Assembly (NCBI GenBank): GCA_903858935.1
Contig: CAIOKO010000186.1
Coordinates: 1 to 32,383 of the forward strand
Source: an uncultured Schlesneria sp.
Lineage (GTDB): Bacteria > Planctomycetota > Planctomycetia > Planctomycetales > Planctomycetaceae
Direction: 5' to 3'
DNA: 32,383 bases
A program made the translations under genes and the position numbers. The stretch's first letter is position 1; every line of letters begins with the position of its first letter. Positions 23,886 to 31,802 of this stretch are shown here, piece after piece. The notes under the pieces were generated by a model that ran no database searches, was not told the origin of the DNA, and was given only the letters and a program-made list of their open reading frames with translations.

Positions 23886-26633
23886 TCAATCTTCCTCATG
23901 CTCCTCTTCGTCCTGATCTTCGACTATGGAAACGGCCCATTCAGGGTAGGGGATTTCGCTCCCTTTTTGCGACCGCCATAAAATTCGGTTCAGGATGTCT
24001 TCCGGGGCCTTGTCAACTTCGCGGAAATTGAGGCTTGCCGAACGAATCGCATCGTCGCGCAGAATTGGATCACGGATTGCGTTTGGATCAGGATTCATCT
24101 GATTTAGAGGGATTTTATTTGGCACCGATTCAAATGGTGTAAAGTTGGGAGTGTCCGTCATGCAGTCGAACATCGGCGTTGCACTAGCATCGAACTGATT
24201 CATCGGGGGCAAACCAAGAATCTGTTCGACCGTGCGAAGGATGCTCGTCGTGTTGTACTGCGTGCTGACAACATGGCTTCGTTTTACGTAAGGGCTTATG
24301 CAATATGCTGTTGTGCGGTAGCCGCTAACGTGATCCCAGCCGTCTTGGGGGTCGTCTTCAATCCCAAAAATAGCCATCTCTTTCCAGAACGGTGATTGGC
24401 TGAGCCCCTGTATGATTCTGCCAAACGCAAGATCATTATCTGCCATCTGCGAAGCCGGGGTTGGTGAACCGGGACTTGTGCCGCTGGTATGGTCGTTTGG
24501 AAGACAGATAATGGTGAGACTGGGAAACTTTCCGTCCGCTTCAAATTGATTGAGTTCTTTCAGAATAAAGTCAGCTCGAAACTGGTCCGGCACGGCCATT
24601 GACCAGCCAACGTAGTCCGTCGGCGAAAACGGCCTGATCGATTCGATCGTGGGGCTGCTCTCGAAGATCACTTCCTTCGAGTCGTCTTTCCAGGTGCGGT
24701 AACAGGCTAGAAAGTTTGGTTTTCCCTTTTTCTGTGGATCTCTCCAACGAACTACGGGTGCCATGAACTCGCCGTAATTTCGAATCGTGACGTTGTGAGC
24801 GATCGCATTGTCCCACAAAAAGCCGGCGGGTGAATAAGCGATCGCGTCAGACTCGTCGTTTACTTCCATACCGTCTGGATAACTACGGGGAAATCCAGCG
24901 AAGCTCTTTTCGAGGTAATCTGTTGCGAACGCCGTCGTACTCCATTGATGTCCGTCGGCACTCAATATGCCTGAGCAATAGGTGTTGTCGAGCAAGACGA
25001 ATTCCCGCACCATTTTATGTTGATTGGGAGTCACCTCGTCACCGAAGATGCACAGTTCCGGGCGACCGTTACCTTGTGGCAGTGCACCGAATACCTGGTC
25101 ATACGTGCGATTTTCTTTGATGATGTAGACGACATGCTTAATCAAGCTCGGCTCGCCGATCCGTTGAGGAATCGCTCGTGCAGGTTGGCCAGTGCGTGCT
25201 GGCAGTGCTGCTTGAGCGATTGCGCCCCGTCGCATGTTCTTTGCCGCTCGTTCCGAAAGCAGTGAAAGTTGCTCGTCGTTGGGAACAGGCATCAACGATA
25301 CCGAACCGTGGTAGTGATGTGAGTTATAACCCTCCGCTCCGTTCGGTTTCTTTTTCGGTGCCTGAGGTAACCCTTTGATGTTGGCGCAGTAGAGGGCATT
25401 TCGACGTGGATCAAACACCACGGCGCCAGGGAACCAGCCTACCGGGATCAACCCGTTGAGCTTCGAATCGCCCTTTTCTTTGGGGTCGAAATTGAAAACA
25501 GCAATTGAGTTCTGCGTTCCGTTGGCGACATACAGACTCTTTCCCGACGGATGAAAGGCGATCGCATTGGGAGAAGCACCGAACAAATCTGACGGCTTGG
25601 CTTTCGCCCAGATCGTTTCAACAACTCTCTCAGCAGCAACGTCGATGACGCTTAAGTGATCACTGCCCGCGTTTGTGCAAACGACGTACTTCGCATCGGG
25701 AGAAGCGGCCAGCCCACAGGCATGTAATCCGACGATCAATTCGACAGTCTTTGATTCGCCTTCGAGATCCACAATGCTGACCGACCCTTCGCTGGCGATA
25801 TGTCGAATCGGGTCGACGCGGACTTCTGTACCACGACCAGCCGGCCCGCGAACACTTTGTTCGTCTGGCCGTCGCCCCGCCCAATTGCTCACGTACGCTT
25901 TGTTGCCAACGCGGACAACATCGTAGGGAGCCGCACCAACATCAAAACTTCTCAGCGCCGTGCCTGTCGCCGTATCAAGTTCAAAGAGTCGATTCGATAG
26001 ATTTCCACAAACGTAAAGCCTCGAGCCATCAGAATTTACTGCCAACCCGCTAGGGATTTCTTCCGGTCGACGGGGTGCTTTGGCCTGCGGCAGCAAAAAC
26101 ACATGCGATGCGTGAACCAGTCCGTCCTCTTTGACCTCAAAGACCTTGATCGTTCCGTTAACGTTGCTGAGATAGATCCACTTCCCATCCGGCGAAAAGA
26201 TCAATCCTGTAAAGCTGACCTGACCACGGCGATCGGGGGCCCGACGGTCCAAAGGATTTAGTATCGCGACACCCGAAGCTGGCTTGACCTGTGAATCGTC
26301 AGGAAAGAGGACTCTCTGCCGGATTTCGCTCGTCACTGGATCGACCACGATCAATTCGCTCGTTTTTCCCGAAGCGACAAGCAATCGACCGTCCGGCGAC
26401 AACGCCAAAGCCTGCGGCCGAAGTCCAGGAAGTTCAACTTGCTTGCCGTATGGCGTGAGCAATTGGTTCACGGGAGTGACAATGACGTCTTCGCGCGACC
26501 GGCCAACGGGGTCTATTGAGCGTTCGATAACCGGTTCGTCCTGGCCAAATCCGAACGAACCAATAGTGACAGCAACGACCACTAGCAGTGCAGCGTTTTG
26601 ATGAATTGCCATTTTCAAACCAAGCCTCAACAT
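23886..26633 (-). CDS. Exported YncE-like beta-propeller fused to phosphoesterase (PF04185-type) domain
   Basis: This encodes 915 residues from the ATG at 26633; starts at 26690 and 26612 are also possible. A signal peptide (about MLRLGLKMAIHQNAALLVVV to GFGQ) targets it outside the cytoplasm. A propeller (about 50-460) has YVTN/YncE-type repeats such as SPDGRLLVASGKTSELIVVD and FHPSGKSLYVANGTQNS. The catalytic part begins at IKENRTYDQVFG (about 503), the entry motif of the acid phosphatase/phospholipase C-like alkaline phosphatase superfamily, and continues with DGHQWS, PNDHTSG and IEDDPQDGWDHV, which carry metal-binding Asp and His. The C-terminus is very acidic (EDQDEEEHEED). The gene starts 60 bases after phnX on the same strand, so it may belong to the phosphonate operon and release phosphate from esters outside the cell. 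Confidence 0.88.
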   Translation of the reverse strand: MLRLGLKMAIHQNAALLVVVAVTIGSFGFGQDEPVIERSIDPVGRSREDVIVTPVNQLLTPYGKQVELPGLRPQALALSPDGRLLVASGKTSELIVVDPVTSEIRQRVLFPDDSQVKPASGVAILNPLDRRAPDRRGQVSFTGLIFSPDGKWIYLSNVNGTIKVFEVKEDGLVHASHVFLLPQAKAPRRPEEIPSGLAVNSDGSRLYVCGNLSNRLFELDTATGTALRSFDVGAAPYDVVRVGNKAYVSNWAGRRPDEQSVRGPAGRGTEVRVDPIRHIASEGSVSIVDLEGESKTVELIVGLHACGLAASPDAKYVVCTNAGSDHLSVIDVAAERVVETIWAKAKPSDLFGASPNAIAFHPSGKSLYVANGTQNSIAVFNFDPKEKGDSKLNGLIPVGWFPGAVVFDPRRNALYCANIKGLPQAPKKKPNGAEGYNSHHYHGSVSLMPVPNDEQLSLLSERAAKNMRRGAIAQAALPARTGQPARAIPQRIGEPSLIKHVVYIIKENRTYDQVFGALPQGNGRPELCIFGDEVTPNQHKMVREFVLLDNTYCSGILSADGHQWSTTAFATDYLEKSFAGFPRSYPDGMEVNDESDAIAYSPAGFLWDNAIAHNVTIRNYGEFMAPVVRWRDPQKKGKPNFLACYRTWKDDSKEVIFESSPTIESIRPFSPTDYVGWSMAVPDQFRADFILKELNQFEADGKFPSLTIICLPNDHTSGTSPGSPTPASQMADNDLAFGRIIQGLSQSPFWKEMAIFGIEDDPQDGWDHVSGYRTTAYCISPYVKRSHVVSTQYNTTSILRTVEQILGLPPMNQFDASATPMFDCMTDTPNFTPFESVPNKIPLNQMNPDPNAIRDPILRDDAIRSASLNFREVDKAPEDILNRILWRSQKGSEIPYPEWAVSIVEDQDEEEHEED

Positions 26634-26693
26634 GCGAGTGGGGAAATCGAATTTTGTGGGTATGGAATTATGAAATTCGAGAGTCGACATGTA

Positions 26694-27473
26694 TCAGTGT
26701 AATAAGTCTGGTAAATCGGCCACTGATGGAATGGTGAAGTGTGCGCCGATCGCATGAAAATCGCTTTCGATCATAGCAAGTCGGGATTGAAGATCCGTCG
26801 GTGACAACTGTGATACCTCGGATTCTGAAAGTCCAAGCGAGTTACCGGTTTTGGTAACACCAATCGTAATTGCACCTGCGTTGAGTCCCGCCTCGATCCC
26901 GATTGGTGTGTCATCCACGACAAGAATTCGGTCCATCGGATAGATTCCGAGTTGCTGAGCGGCCAGGAAGTTCATCCAGGGAGCCGGTCGGCCCGATGGG
27001 ACGTCGTCCGCACAAATCACGACGTCTGGAGCATATCCCGCTCTTGCGGCAATCGGTACGACAATGTCCATCAGTTCGCGAGCGTAACCGGTTGACGAGC
27101 CGATTTTTAATCCCTGGCAACGTAGTCTCTCGATTGCATCTGGAACGCCTGGAATCACGTCGGTACCAGTGACCAGGGCTTCTTTTTGCAGCGGGAGGAA
27201 GTCGTAGTACAATTGGTCGATATCAATATCGGAAGGCAAGCGTCCATAACGTTCGGACCAGAGGGCGGCGACTCGCGGAAGCGTTGCGATTGCCACGATG
27301 TGATCCCGTTTTGTTCGTCCCATCGGGCCGCGTGCTTCGGCGACCGTGATTTCGACGCCGTTCTTTCGAAAGACCTCGATGAATACATTTGTTGGTGCAC
27401 GACTTCCGTAATCGACAGTGGTTCCAGCCCAATCGAAAATAATTGCTTCGATCGGGTGTTTCAGTTCGATCAT
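26694..27473 (-). CDS. phnX: Phosphonoacetaldehyde hydrolase (phosphonatase)
   Basis: This encodes 259 residues. The ATG at 27473 overlaps the stop of the upstream oxidoreductase (ATGA) and begins right before the conserved N-terminus; the frame is open 54 codons further, but that part is antisense-like and overlaps the neighbour. [11 protein letters not shown] carries the nucleophile Asp14 with Ala at +2, the haloacid dehalogenase arrangement typical of Phn[12 protein letters not shown] places the Schiff-base Lys55 and Met51 as in the Bacillus enzyme. [24 protein letters not shown] and [12 protein letters not shown] are the remaining motifs. It splits phosphonoacetaldehyde into acetaldehyde and phosphate in the cytoplasm. 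It is the third gene of the leftward phosphonate operon. Confidence 0.96.
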
Positions 27474-28600
27474 GACCAGTGCTCCCAATCTTGTTCGGCG
27501 AGTCCGAAAGACATCGTCATACCTGAACCCCCCGTACATGTTCGCACAAACACATTTGACAGAGGTTCGGCGGCGAAAACCGGTTCGGATGGATGTTTGG
27601 CGTAGATCCCATGCCAATGCTCCTGGATCGTCCAATCAGGCAGTTGAATAATCGACCTCAGCTCACGAAGGATTAATTCATCGATCGTTTGTTTGTCGAA
27701 TGGTTCGATCTGGTCGTCGTATTCATGCGAGTCGCCAAGAATCACACAACCCTCGTCATTCTGCGAGGCCATCACGTGAATTCCAAATTGATCGAGTTCG
27801 GGAGATTCGGCGGCGACTCGCTGCTTCAGAACGGAAAGGCTCGGACAGACCTCGAAATTACGATAGTGACGAATTGTTAACCCGCTGGCCAGATGAGGCC
27901 CGATCCGCCAACCGTTCGGTTGCGGCACCGTCTTCATCATTTGCAGCTTACATCTTTTCAATCCCACGTTGGCAAATAGATCTGGAAATAAAGTTTCAAA
28001 ATCCGCTCCACCACAAACGATGACTCGATCAAAGTTCCAACGACGACCATCGGCACTTTGGGCCAGGTTTCCATCGGTTCCAATAATGGTTGTCTTGAAT
28101 TCGAATCGCACGTCGAACATCGACGACAGCCAGCGAGGGAGCGCGCGAATCGCCGATGGGGGATTCACGCAAAGTTCGGTCGGGCTGAATAGTCCGCCAA
28201 GCAATCTCGCCGGATTTGCAGCACTTGTTTTTTCGAGAACCTGAGAGGGTTCAAGCAATGTACAATCAACGCCGATCTCTGATGCGACTGCATGAAACTC
28301 TTGTAACACGTCCCATTCATCGGGACGGTGAGCCAGATGGATGGATCCACAGGAAGACGCCCAGATATTCGCCTGGCCTGCCAGTTTCAACCAGCGATCG
28401 CGGCTGAGAAGAGCGGTCTGATGGGCTGAACCGGAAGGTTGACCGATTGGCCAGACCATGCCGAAATTTCGGATCGACGCACCGCTGGCAATCGGTGACC
28501 GTTCGAATACCGTCACCCGGTGCCCTCGTTCGGCCGCTGACCAGGCGTGTGCCAAACCTACGATACCTCCCCCGACAACTCCGACATTCAAACGAGGCAC
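27470..28600 (-). CDS. FAD-dependent oxidoreductase of the phosphonate-associated family (TIGR03364/HpnW type)
   Basis: This encodes 376 residues with a GTG start at 28600, supported by AAGGGG eight bases upstream. The Rossmann FAD motif is [12 protein letters not shown] (residues 9-20), with the ribose-binding Glu33 in [13 protein letters not shown] near residue 45 is characteristic of this DAO-superfamily subgroup, and the C-terminus [14 protein letters not shown] is the second FAD contact. DAO-type flavoproteins oxidise amines or amino acids to imines with release of hydrogen peroxide. Enzymes of this subgroup travel with phosphonate genes, and I recall reports that related ones oxidise 2-aminoethylphosphonate-type amines to phosphonoacetaldehyde. 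That product would feed PhnX, translated with a four-base overlap. It overlaps the HD gene by 13 bases. Confidence 0.88.
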
Positions 28601-29187
28601 TCAAAATCCCCTTCGAAATCTGATTTGGCAACACGGTCAAGGTGCGTGGCAAAATGTTCAATCGGCGGGGTCACCAATTGTGGCTGTTTCGCGAAATCAT
28701 CCCAACGGCGAAGTGCGACCGCCGCTTCGCAGAATGGATGTGATCGAAATAATCTGACTTCGTCGTCAGACATTACTCCCCCTTGCAATCGTAAACTGAC
28801 GATGGATGCCGGACTGAGTTGTGCGATGTAATCCTTTTCTGTGGCACATAGGAATCGCTTCGCATCGACGTGTAACCTGACAGGCTCGACAACTTCCGGC
28901 CCGAATCGACGCTCGAGCCACTGGGCAGCGAGCGTTTCATGTCGATCATCGATTCCTCGTTCGGGTGCGTCATCATCGAGTTGGTGAAGCAAGTGGCCGA
29001 CGTCATGTAACAACGCTGCAGCGATTAACGAGGAACTGACACCTGCAGTTTCCGCAAAAAATGCAGCCTGTAACGCGTGTTCTTGCTGCGACACAGCTTC
29101 GCGACCATATTGAGAACCGCCACGTTTTTGAAAAAGTTGAATAACCTTGATCGTTATCGCGCAGTGATTGCCGTCCGTCTCAAGCAT
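28588..29187 (-). CDS. phnZ: PhnZ-like HD-domain diiron oxygenase (phosphonate-associated)
   Basis: This encodes 199 residues from the ATG at 29187, with AAGGAT upstream. It matches the PhnZ pattern closely. His37, His61-Asp62, His83, His106 and Asp163 fall where the PhnZ metal ligands lie (offset two to three residues from my recollection of PhnZ numbering). The active-site gating pair Tyr27 and Glu30 (YGRE) and Lys110 in [10 protein letters not shown] are also kept. PhnZ uses a mixed-valence di-iron site to cleave (R)-1-hydroxy-2-aminoethylphosphonate into glycine and phosphate. Its usual partner PhnY, which makes that substrate, is not in the window. It is the first gene of the leftward phosphonate operon. 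Exact substrate is inferred, not shown. Confidence 0.88.
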
Positions 29188-29233
29188 TTCTTGAAATCCT
29201 TATCGGTCCTTCATCATTCGACAACGTCGATCC

Positions 29234-29242
29234 AGTATAGAC
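29234..29242. promoter_or_regulatory. Candidate HutC/PhnF-type operator over the phnZ-side -10 box
   Basis: GTATAGAC (29235-29242) fits the GT(A/C)TA(G/T)AC core I recall for HutC-subfamily GntR regulators, to which PhnF belongs. On the minus strand it overlaps TATACT (29239-29234), a near-consensus -10 box for the phnZ-like operon, so a bound repressor would block it. It lies in the 120-bp space between the two divergent phosphonate operons. No GntR gene is in the window, and the -35 region is weak. Confidence 0.4.
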
Positions 29243-29307
29243 GAGATTGTAGTACACTGCAGATCACAAAATGTGCGGTCATCGAGTCATTTTTTCGCGA
29301 GTTTTTA

Positions 29308-30606
29308 ATGAAATTATTCAGTGAATCTGGCATTGAATCTCGACACCGTGATGTCAACGACCGCCATCATGTCAATGATTTTGCGTTTGCATTCTGGACG
29401 GTTACGGCAGCTTTTGGCTGCTACTTTTGCATGTATTTCTTCCGCAAACCTTTCACCGCAGCTCGTTTCCACGATGCCGACGTTTGGGGGTTAAGCTTCA
29501 AGGTCGTGCTCGTGATGGCTCAGGTCGCAGGCTATATGCTATCAAAAATCATCGGCATCAAAATTATTGCGGAAATGCCTGCTCATCGGCGAGCAATGAC
29601 GATGTTGTGGCTGATTATCGCGGCTGAAGGGGCTTTGGTTCTATTCGGTCTGGTTCCAAGACCGTGGAATGCGGTCTGCCTTTTTCTGAATGGATTACCG
29701 TTGGGAATGGTCTACGGATTGGTGCAAGGCTTTTTGGAAGGGAGACGGTTAACGGAATTGCTGACAGCGGGGCTTTGTTCGAGTTTTATTGTGGCTGATG
29801 GCATGACGAAATCGGTGGGAACCTGGTTACTTGTCCAAGGAGTTACCGAAGATTGGATGCCCTCCGTCGCTGGTTTGATCTTTCTGATTCCCTTTGGCGT
29901 CTGCGTGGCGATTCTGGCAGGGACTCCGGCGCCAAACGAATTTGACGTTGTCGCCCGCAGTAAACGAGACACGATGAACCGATCCGAGCGGCTGGCGTTC
30001 GTCAGACGTTACGGAATAGGATTAATGCCAATCGTGCTGATGTACCTTCTGGTCACGATTGTGAGAAGTATTCGCGCCGATTTCGCCCCGGAAATCTGGA
30101 AAGAACTGGGAAACGCGACTGCGTCTTCGATTTTCACCCGTTCTGAAACGATCATTGCGTTTTGTGTGCTGTTCATGAACGGCGCGGCCGTGCTGATAAT
30201 CAATAACCGCCGGGCATTCCTTTCATCGCTGGCAACGTGCGGATTGGGGTTTGTGCTGATGATGGCGGCATTGCTGACACGTAACTCCTCGGCCGACGGC
30301 GGTTTCACTTTCATGGTATTGATCGGTCTCGGACTTTATCTCCCTTACGTTGCCGTACATACGACTTTATTGGAACGGCTGTTGGCGATGACCGGCGAAC
30401 GAGGGAACGTAGGCTTCCTGATGTATGTCGCAGATTCGGTGGGATATCTGGGATACGTTGCGGTGATGTTATTGCGTAATTTCCATCCCTCGGCATCGGG
30501 TGTCCTAGGACTGTTGACGTGGCTCAGCTGGCTGACAATTGTAGTTTCCATCGCTTGTCTTGCGACGAGTTGGATCTATTTCTCGATTGCCAAGAAAACG
30601 TCATGA
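29308..30606 (+). CDS. DUF5690/MFS-like membrane transporter, candidate phosphonate carrier
   Basis: This encodes 432 residues from the ATG at 29308. The frame is open further upstream, but that part is antisense to the phnZ-like gene. About ten to twelve hydrophobic helices span the protein. Landmarks are FAFWTVTAAFGCYFCMYFFRKPF at the N-terminus, NGLPLGMVYGLVQGFLEGRR in the middle and MYVADSVGYLGYVAVMLLRN near the end. Together they identify DUF5690, a family related to the major facilitator superfamily. Its substrate is unknown. It is divergent from the phosphonate catabolic operon and overlaps the downstream dehydrogenase by four bases, and no PhnCDE system is present, so uptake of an organophosphonate is the natural inference. 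The ribosome binding site is weak. Confidence 0.87.
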   Translation: MKLFSESGIESRHRDVNDRHHVNDFAFAFWTVTAAFGCYFCMYFFRKPFTAARFHDADVWGLSFKVVLVMAQVAGYMLSKIIGIKIIAEMPAHRRAMTMLWLIIAAEGALVLFGLVPRPWNAVCLFLNGLPLGMVYGLVQGFLEGRRLTELLTAGLCSSFIVADGMTKSVGTWLLVQGVTEDWMPSVAGLIFLIPFGVCVAILAGTPAPNEFDVVARSKRDTMNRSERLAFVRRYGIGLMPIVLMYLLVTIVRSIRADFAPEIWKELGNATASSIFTRSETIIAFCVLFMNGAAVLIINNRRAFLSSLATCGLGFVLMMAALLTRNSSADGGFTFMVLIGLGLYLPYVAVHTTLLERLLAMTGERGNVGFLMYVADSVGYLGYVAVMLLRNFHPSASGVLGLLTWLSWLTIVVSIACLATSWIYFSIAKKTS

Positions 30607-31802
30607 CGCCGAATACTTCATCTGCAGACGCCAGCAAGCCTCCCGCGAACGAAGTTCCTGTGCTTAACCCGTCACGCGACGCGAATCGACTTGCGTTAAC
30701 GGCGCACGCGGCGGTTTTTGCGGGGTCGGCGGGCGAGATAACATTGCGTCAGTTATCGATTCCCGAGCTTGGCGAATCCGAGGTCCTTGTTCGTGTATCT
30801 GGCTGTACGATTTGCGGAAGCGATTTACATAGCTTTCATGGACATCGAACTGTACCGGTACCGACAATTCTAGGTCATGAGATCGTGGGAACGATCGTCG
30901 AAATTGGCGGTACGTCGGAAAGGTTTGATCTGGATGGGCGGGAATTACGGCGTGGTGACCGAGTGACCTGGGCCATTATGGCGAACTGTGGCGTCTGCGA
31001 TTTATGTCAACGTGGCTTGCCTCAGAAATGCTTGAATGGAGTCAAATATGGACATGAACCATTTCGTCCCGGTCGCGAATTAACAGGAGGATTAGCCGAG
31101 TATTGTCTTCTTGTCCCAGGGACATCAATCGTGAGATTGCCCGACGAACTTCCTTTAGCTGTTGCCTGTCCGGCCAGCTGTGCAACCGCCACGATCGTGG
31201 CGGCGTTGGAAGCAGCCGGCGACCTCAGGGGACGAACCGTGTGTTTGAGTGGTGCTGGTATGTTGGGGCTTACCGCCTGTGCCATGGCTCGCGTTCTAGG
31301 TGCTTCAAAAGTCGTTTCCGTAGACCCCGTTTCTGCGCGAAGAAAACTCGCCATGGAATTTGGTGCGACTCGGACATGTGCCCCAGACGAACTCGCCGCT
31401 GTGGCAATCGAAGAAGTTCACGCGCTTGGCTTCGACGTAGTAGTCGAGCTTTCAGGCAGCCCGACCGCGTTTCAAGTTACCTGGCCCTTGATTCGTACTG
31501 GGGGGACACTCGTATTAGTGGGTTCAGTGTTCCCTGGCCCTTCGATGCCAATTGCCCTGGAACAGGTTGTGCGTCGACATCTCACAATTCGAGGGATTCA
31601 TAACTACGCACCCCGCCACTTGCTGGAAGCGGTGAATTTTCTGTCATACGCACATACTCAGTACCCGTTCGCCCGACTTGTTTCAGAATGGATTCCGCTG
31701 ACTTCAATCGCTGATGCATTCCGTCGAAGCAGTCAATCCGACGCAATCCGGATTGGAGTTTATTCAACGGACGTTCCCCATCATGGCACGGACAATCCCT
31801 GA
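30603..31802 (+). CDS. Zinc-dependent alcohol dehydrogenase, phosphonate-associated type (TIGR03366/HpnZ)
   Basis: This encodes 399 residues. The ATG at 30603 overlaps the transporter stop (ATGA). The catalytic zinc site is Cys71 in CTICGSDLH with His92-Glu93 in GHEIVG; the structural zinc is held by Cys129, Cys132, Cys135 and Cys143 (CGVCDLCQRGLPQKC). The NAD-binding motif is GAGMLGL. The segment HSFHGHRTVPVPTILGHEI and the KYGHEPFRPGRELTGGLAEY region match a medium-chain dehydrogenase subgroup that travels with phosphonate genes. It interconverts an alcohol and an aldehyde with NAD(P). Possible substrates here are 2-hydroxyethylphosphonate, giving phosphonoacetaldehyde for PhnX, or acetaldehyde released by PhnX. 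Which of these is not decided by the sequence. Confidence 0.9.
   Translation: MTPNTSSADASKPPANEVPVLNPSRDANRLALTAHAAVFAGSAGEITLRQLSIPELGESEVLVRVSGCTICGSDLHSFHGHRTVPVPTILGHEIVGTIVEIGGTSERFDLDGRELRRGDRVTWAIMANCGVCDLCQRGLPQKCLNGVKYGHEPFRPGRELTGGLAEYCLLVPGTSIVRLPDELPLAVACPASCATATIVAALEAAGDLRGRTVCLSGAGMLGLTACAMARVLGASKVVSVDPVSARRKLAMEFGATRTCAPDELAAVAIEEVHALGFDVVVELSGSPTAFQVTWPLIRTGGTLVLVGSVFPGPSMPIALEQVVRRHLTIRGIHNYAPRHLLEAVNFLSYAHTQYPFARLVSEWIPLTSIADAFRRSSQSDAIRIGVYSTDVPHHGTDNP

Follow-up and report, generated by a model that had tools for sequence, protein, structure and literature searches.

A divergent phosphonate locus of an uncultured Schlesneria combines a probable PbfD-PhnX route with a candidate DUF5690 permease and two accessory enzymes

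A two-operon cassette around PbfD and PhnX

We analysed a 32,383-nucleotide stretch of DNA (contig CAIOKO010000186.1, hereafter the window) from an uncultured Schlesneria sp., part of a 7.93-Mb planctomycete genome in 280 contigs that is 99.96% complete. Five genes at 26694-31802 lie there in two divergent operons, one on the minus strand (HD-domain oxygenase, FAD-dependent oxidoreductase, PhnX) and one on the plus strand (DUF5690 membrane protein, HpnZ-type dehydrogenase). This locus is, very probably as regards its PbfD-PhnX core, a cassette for the uptake and breakdown of C2 phosphonates built around the published PbfD2-PhnX pathway. Four of the five proteins pass curated cut-offs (TIGR03276, TIGR03364, TIGR01422 and TIGR03366) and the fifth is a PF18943 (DUF5690) protein.

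The flavoprotein is a member of TIGR03364 and the hydrolase of TIGR01422 (scores in Table 1). TIGR03364 is the PbfD family. PbfD2 of the planctomycete Mariniblastus fucicola converts N-methyl-2-aminoethylphosphonate (N-methyl-AEP or M1AEP) and 2-aminoethylphosphonate (AEP) to phosphonoacetaldehyde with oxygen as acceptor (Zangelmi et al. 2023, PMC10590968). The same source gives a kcat/KM of 13500 for M1AEP, the best substrate of this enzyme, and of 3400 for AEP, describes phnW as apparently missing from the M. fucicola genome, and lists "PbfD2 and PhnX" as a third pathway. The Schlesneria locus has the trait of the PbfD2 subgroup, with phnX clustered and phnW absent from both the window and the genome. 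By analogy with the M. fucicola enzyme, the window oxidase would turn N-methyl-AEP or AEP and oxygen into phosphonoacetaldehyde, methylamine or ammonia, and hydrogen peroxide, and PhnX would cleave the phosphonoacetaldehyde to acetaldehyde and phosphate, the reaction established for its family. The window flavoprotein is 91, 91 and 88% identical to its nearest named relatives, all from uncultured Schlesneria, and 39.4-60.4% identical to twelve other survey sequences, against 27.6-30.8% to five homologues from genus g3 that are encoded beside phnW.

We then searched the whole genome for the usual phosphonate genes. No protein passed the PhnW cut-off (best 130 bits against 400.8), no PhnJ of the C-P lyase was found, and the best matches to PhnD and PhnA reached 12 bits (cut-off 112) and 24 bits (cut-off 408); PhnC and PhnE were not searched for. 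Six PhyH proteins matched PhnY1 with at most 96 bits against a cut-off of 500, in a scan that contained no model for the AEP-specific PhnY*. The 130-bit protein (on L009; L numbers denote loci and G numbers genomes) was considered as a hidden PhnW and rejected, for it scored higher on aspartate-glyoxylate transaminase/BhcA (223 bits), on pyridoxamine-pyruvate transaminase (199) and on a broader PhnW-AepZ model (174 of the 361 required). This transaminase passes no model's cut-off, and a PhnW-like side activity is compatible with its sequence alone.

To place the locus among its relatives, we surveyed 294 planctomycete genomes, counting PhnX, PhnW and HpnZ over their curated cut-offs and HD and DUF5690 proteins at an E-value limit. 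PhnX was over its cut-off in 21 genomes. All 10 of these without PhnW, which gave no PhnW match even at an E-value of 1e-60, carried a TIGR03364 protein of at least 397 bits, and none of the 11 with PhnW did (Fisher p 3e-6, kinship ignored). Five of the 11, all of genus g3, had a divergent TIGR03364 protein (292.6-321.2 bits) encoded within the phnW cluster. For named genomes, PbfD loci were sought with an alignment of 12 of the 19 TIGR03364 survey sequences, the best 80 of 575 confirmed loci were retained, and gene content was called by phmmer score thresholds that we set ourselves. PhnW was found in none of the 80, an absence that is weak because many loci end at contig edges. All five cassette genes occurred together in 22 of the 80 loci, so that the grouping is not a chance one. 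In a wider set of 133 loci, the window is counted too and at least one genome appears twice (98 of its 99 PbfD loci are distinct).

Several observations weigh against this reading of the core. Four of the 19 genomes with a TIGR03364 protein (G095, G148, G172 and G281) had no PhnX over cut-off; the high scorer of G281 coexists with PhnW, so that the complementarity of PbfD and PhnW is not absolute; in 7 of the 80 PbfD loci no sought-after partner gene was seen; common descent is not corrected for in the genome counts; and it is through family membership that the window protein is linked to the assayed PbfD2. In G172 (L049:8856-10612), which had neither PhnX nor PhnW over cut-off genome-wide, the TIGR03364 gene is directly followed by an HD oxygenase gene.

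Replacement of PhnW by the flavoprotein through oxidative deamination, as predicted from sequence, is well supported by family membership, the lack of a genomic PhnW and the survey pattern. The first-pass annotation had proposed this replacement; it was right in kind, and the transaminase-free route is not new, since it was shown biochemically for M. fucicola PbfD2. Of the substrates it had offered, an N-alkylated one fits the preference of PbfD2 for N-methyl-AEP (PMC10590968), and a 1-hydroxy one is in our view better assigned to the HD oxygenase. It had also described the locus as lacking PhnW, PhnY, C-P lyase and PhnCDE: by model, PhnW, PhnJ and PhnD have no match over cut-off genome-wide, PhnY is absent by the PhnY1 model only with a PhnY* possible elsewhere, and PhnC and PhnE fall outside the search. 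The intact phnW elsewhere that it had named as the case against itself did not appear over cut-off in this nearly complete genome. Its route covered the flavoprotein and PhnX, and the HD, DUF5690 and HpnZ proteins had been left without separate roles.

DUF5690 as a candidate phosphonate permease

The DUF5690 protein is probably a phosphonate permease, and would import the substrate of the cassette. The family occurred at 24 places in 23 of the 294 genomes (two rows of G092 were counted as one split gene), and at 16 of them the gene adjoined that of HD, PbfD, PhnX, PhnW, PhnA or HpnZ, or once PhnY1; the 16 include G057, where it lies 3.3 kb from PhnW with PbfA in between. In L147 it comes straight after PhnA, the two genes sharing 4 bases. 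All four matches on plasmids outside planctomycetes had phosphonate genes directly downstream, which on the Novosphingobium plasmid were PbfD-PhnX.

Known phosphonate pathways accompany the gene elsewhere. In a relative (L139:6681-9456), DUF5690-PhnY1-PhnZ1 form one operon with 4-base overlaps, that is, the known methylphosphonate pathway with the same candidate permease. L156:6094-16038 holds DUF5690, an unassigned 564-aa gene, PbfA (703 bits, cut-off 525), PhnW, two other open reading frames (ORFs), phosphonoacetaldehyde dehydrogenase and PhnA, and is a phnWYA-pbfA cluster with a DUF5690 candidate permease. The arrangement DUF5690-phnX-phnW was seen on records listed as plasmids (L176, L177 and L179) from Bacteroides finegoldii, Parabacteroides distasonis and Phocaeicola massiliensis, the PhnX-PhnW of Phocaeicola being judged by phmmer only.

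A proven AEP permease of Pseudomonas putida BIRD-1, AepP, is GlpT-like (PMC8316502). AepP homologues were present in 3 of the 80 PbfD loci and in five g3 clusters, and none of the 133 loci held both AepP and DUF5690; one g3 genome (G238) has both, at different places. The literature searched held no mention of DUF5690.

An AlphaFold model of the protein (pLDDT 86.6, pTM 0.86) has a major facilitator superfamily (MFS) fold. A Foldseek search against solved structures returned SLC37A4/G6PT, an organophosphate antiporter, in eight of the ten top rows, with many entries coming from a single protein (best E-value 3e-7, TM-score 0.58-0.71). The pattern Y-x3-Y-x2-R-K-x-F/Y in the first transmembrane helix (TM1) was found in 58 of 61 DUF5690 members and in none of the 1,204 other ORFs that were 300 aa or longer; its strict form is present in three of the four plasmid proteins and missing from that of Novosphingobium. 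R46, R253 and R256 are invariant in all 61 members and K47 is kept in 59, as counted without motif-based selection. The alignment used for the fold comprised the window and 24 of 38 DUF5690 loci, the remainder being dropped by a pattern that contained the TM1 motif (8), for an incomplete frame or X (1) or by choice (5). In alignments, the TM1 spacing Y-x3-Y-x2-R is common to DUF5690, GlpT, SLC37A4 and eight AepP homologues. A weak hhalign alignment pairs R253 with an arginine of AepP whose counterpart in GlpT is the TM7 arginine.

The case for a permease is weakened by the following points. NorA, MCT1 and GLUT3 come close to SLC37A4 in the fold search, the 50 matches listed there do not include GlpT, the hhalign comparison with AepP is weak (probability 10%, E-value 0.003), and a profile search of PDB sequences with DUF5690 gave nothing up to an E-value of 10. 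Furthermore, 8 of the 24 places had no searched phosphonate gene nearby (G064, G071, G107, G133, G148 on a 4-kb contig, G163, the second copy of G186, and G196).

DUF5690 might instead move something other than the incoming substrate, for example a product or phosphate, which we regard as rather improbable. In two genomes with no linked phosphonate gene (L159 and L160), DUF5690 stands beside a CDP-alcohol phosphatidyltransferase, and this could mean export or lipid recycling; its linkage at various places to PhnX, PhnW, PbfD, PhnA, PhnY1-PhnZ1 and HpnZ, and its alternation with AepP, argue instead for import of the phosphonate. In these two loci (L159:4846-7219 and L160:4377-7491, family f56) the two genes are divergent, and that of L160 also lies near a nucleotidyltransferase. 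The f56 setting recalls polar-lipid or phosphonolipid synthesis and could point to a second DUF5690 role.

The HD oxygenase as a probable second C-P-cleaving branch

The HD protein most likely provides a second, oxidative C-P-cleaving branch. It is a TIGR03276 member that keeps all ten of the site positions checked, whose choice and numbering follow PhnZ. Against solved structures, phmmer matched it to TmpB (6npa, 117 bits) and PhnZ (4mlm, 97 bits), and it remains below the cut-offs of both NF049941 TmpB (174.3 against 300) and NF052439 PhnZ1 (157.7 against 300), being neither by that measure. PhnZ is established to convert (R)-1-hydroxy-AEP (R-HAEP) to glycine and phosphate, and the window enzyme would likewise cleave imported R-HAEP, a task that falls to PbfA elsewhere. 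We lean slightly towards R-HAEP as its substrate.

HD genes were found in 41 of the 80 PbfD loci, 40 of them with PhnX as well (the exception, L132, ends within the FAD gene); no locus of the 80 had HD together with PhnA. PbfA, the R-HAEP lyase, reached at least 500 bits in 2 of the 133 loci, L097 and L156, the L156 protein also passing the PbfA model; neither locus is among the 64 with HD. Two HD loci (L114 and L089) gave weak matches of 56 and 51 bits, which we attributed to different class III transaminases. Similarly, phnZ has been reported in 15 phnWX and 24 phnWAY clusters and never beside pbfA (Zangelmi et al. 2021, PMC8154272), which was read there as indicating that R-HAEP requires a separate means of removal. 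In the 294-genome survey, PhnX was present in 15 of 23 HD-bearing genomes. Its absence from the other 8 speaks against the proposed branch, as does the slightly closer score of the HD protein, under both cut-offs, to TmpB than to PhnZ1.

Since the protein falls short of the PhnZ1 and TmpB cut-offs and scores slightly nearer TmpB, it may act on an N-methylated hydroxy-AEP, by likeness to the trimethyl form used by TmpB and to match a flavoprotein that prefers N-methyl-AEP. We consider this unlikely: the score is indeed nearer TmpB than PhnZ or PhnZ1, yet it remains at 174 bits against 300, and PhnZ, although somewhat tolerant, requires (R)-hydroxyphosphonates (PMC10574752).

Alternatively, the HD protein could end a full PhnY-PhnZ route whose hydroxylase, one of the six PhyH proteins, is encoded elsewhere, so that AEP is degraded twice over. 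Two of the six reach 86-96 bits on the PhnY1 model, but none comes near its cut-off of 500. Only L139 and L140 have a PhyH gene next to that of HD, and the L139 pair consists of PhnY1 and PhnZ1, adjacent and both over their cut-offs, whereas the 41 HD loci of the 80 show no adjacent PhyH and a single one 4 kb off (L096). PhyH was sought by similarity to the genome's own six proteins, so that a remote one could be missed. We hold such a doubled route to be quite improbable, and keep cleavage of imported R-HAEP as the preferred role.

The HpnZ-type dehydrogenase

The HpnZ protein is assigned clearly within its family (Table 1), the next best model being threonine 3-dehydrogenase (155 bits against 380). 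HpnZ was over cut-off in 14 of the 294 genomes, all of them with PhnX, and two genomes with a match under the cut-off (G105 and G017) had no PhnX. In G152, G158, G186 and G283 the DUF5690-HpnZ pair stands apart from the other cassette genes. Two loci without PhnX combine HpnZ over cut-off with PhnA and phosphonoacetaldehyde dehydrogenase (L099, 352 bits; L128, 374 bits), a lower-scoring relative lies beside PhnA in L108 (290.6 bits) and, by phmmer only, in L105, L115 and L134, and 4 of 42 HpnZ loci (L119, L127, L129 and L132) showed neither PhnX nor PhnA.

The PhnY/PhnA route yields acetate, not acetaldehyde. Because HpnZ also occurs in PhnY/PhnA clusters, whose route makes no acetaldehyde, it probably acts before phosphonoacetaldehyde, a position that, judged on gene content, fits both the PhnX and the PhnA loci. 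HpnZ may thus supply the phosphonoacetaldehyde pool from another compound, for which 2-hydroxyethylphosphonate is the simplest candidate. This compound is abundant (PMC9381506), the Pbf flavoenzymes are unable to oxidise it (PMC10590968) and PbfF is inactive on it (PMC12366243); the portions of the literature searched named no catabolic dehydrogenase for it. We put this substrate forward tentatively.

A detoxifying alcohol dehydrogenase that acts after PhnX, reducing or oxidising the acetaldehyde made there, would also fit a zinc alcohol dehydrogenase family, and the presence of PhnX in all 14 genomes with HpnZ over cut-off, and not in the two with lower matches, agrees with it. We find this doubtful in view of the acetate-route loci L099 and L128 and of the lower-scoring relatives with PhnA; in addition, HpnZ was not seen in 28 of 60 PhnX loci within the sequence examined. 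A role as phosphonate racemase was considered and discarded, since PbfF belongs to PF02826 and the window protein to the zinc alcohol dehydrogenases.

Layout of the locus and neighbouring genes

Table 1. Features of the phosphonate locus, in window coordinates.
Feature	Coordinates	Strand	Basis
PhnX, phosphonoacetaldehyde hydrolase, 259 aa	26694..27473	-	TIGR01422 equivalog, 326.6 bits (cut-off 220)
PbfD-type FAD-dependent aminophosphonate oxidase, 376 aa, GTG start	27470..28600	-	TIGR03364, 437.3 bits (cut-off 285.1); DAO domain
PhnZ/TmpB-like HD-domain di-iron oxygenase, 199 aa	28588..29187	-	TIGR03276, 220.3 bits (cut-off 214.6)
Divergent promoter region, 120 bp	29188..29307	.	Between the HD and DUF5690 start codons
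DUF5690 membrane protein, probable phosphonate permease, 432 aa	29308..30606	+	PF18943, 442 bits
HpnZ-type zinc alcohol dehydrogenase, 399 aa	30603..31802	+	TIGR03366, 411 bits (cut-off 328.1)

The five phosphonate-associated genes in two operons facing apart had been described by the first-pass annotation, and its coordinates, its overlaps (13 bases for HD/FAD, 4 for FAD/PhnX and 4 for DUF5690/HpnZ) and its intergenic gap were all borne out. PhnX was listed as an over-extended ORF of 313 aa; the gene starts at the ATG at 27473, which gives the overlap with the end of the FAD gene. When the promoter region (29188-29307) was aligned with eight loci, good conservation was limited, by eye, to the three closest ones from Schlesneria, and the alignment showed no recognisable Pho box.

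A 934-aa ORF with a beta-propeller and a PF04185 phosphoesterase domain (23886-26690, minus strand) lies 3 bases past the end of PhnX, and its true start is maybe further in. Close homologues come after PhnX in L059 and L061 and are shifted by about 2.4 kb in L060; the only other one seen among the 80 loci is that of L114, where it lies across the cluster from this position. The protein might be secreted and release phosphonate head groups, or it might have nothing to do with the adjoining cassette.

Significance and comparison with known systems

The window adds one member to a published route, and the survey shows a sharp exclusion between high-scoring PbfD and PhnW in PhnX-bearing planctomycetes. 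The roles of DUF5690 and HpnZ were not found in the literature searched, so that any novelty looks moderate and to lie in the accessory genes. It is possible, though we would not count on it, that DUF5690 is an unrecognised phosphonate permease family, a remote cousin of organophosphate antiporters found in Planctomycetota, Alphaproteobacteria and Bacteroidota, and at the same time that HpnZ is the missing catabolic dehydrogenase for 2-hydroxyethylphosphonate. The locus would then be a three-entry C2-phosphonate machine accepting AEP or N-methyl-AEP, R-hydroxy-AEP and 2-hydroxyethylphosphonate.

The closest known system is PbfD2-PhnX of M. fucicola, likewise planctomycete, which shares phnX with a TIGR03364/PbfD flavoprotein, formation of phosphonoacetaldehyde by oxidative deamination, and the absence of phnW from cluster and genome; it differs in that the words DUF5690, TmpB and MFS do not occur in the main text describing it (PMC10590968). 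With PhnY-PhnZ and TmpA-TmpB the locus has in common an HD-domain di-iron oxygenase that keeps the checked active-site positions, but its operon holds no hydroxylase partner and its HD protein falls under the TmpB and PhnZ1 cut-offs. TIGR03366 (HpnZ_proposed), which the literature searched did not name, covers the window dehydrogenase by score and phosphonate neighbourhood, whereas the model itself is a hypothetical equivalog with no stated activity. AepP of P. putida BIRD-1 belongs to another Pfam family than DUF5690, shows only a weak profile match and, in its eight homologues, has S where DUF5690 has K after the motif arginine, yet it occupies the same slot in the cluster and has the same MFS-type fold and the same Y-x3-Y-x2-R spacing in TM1.

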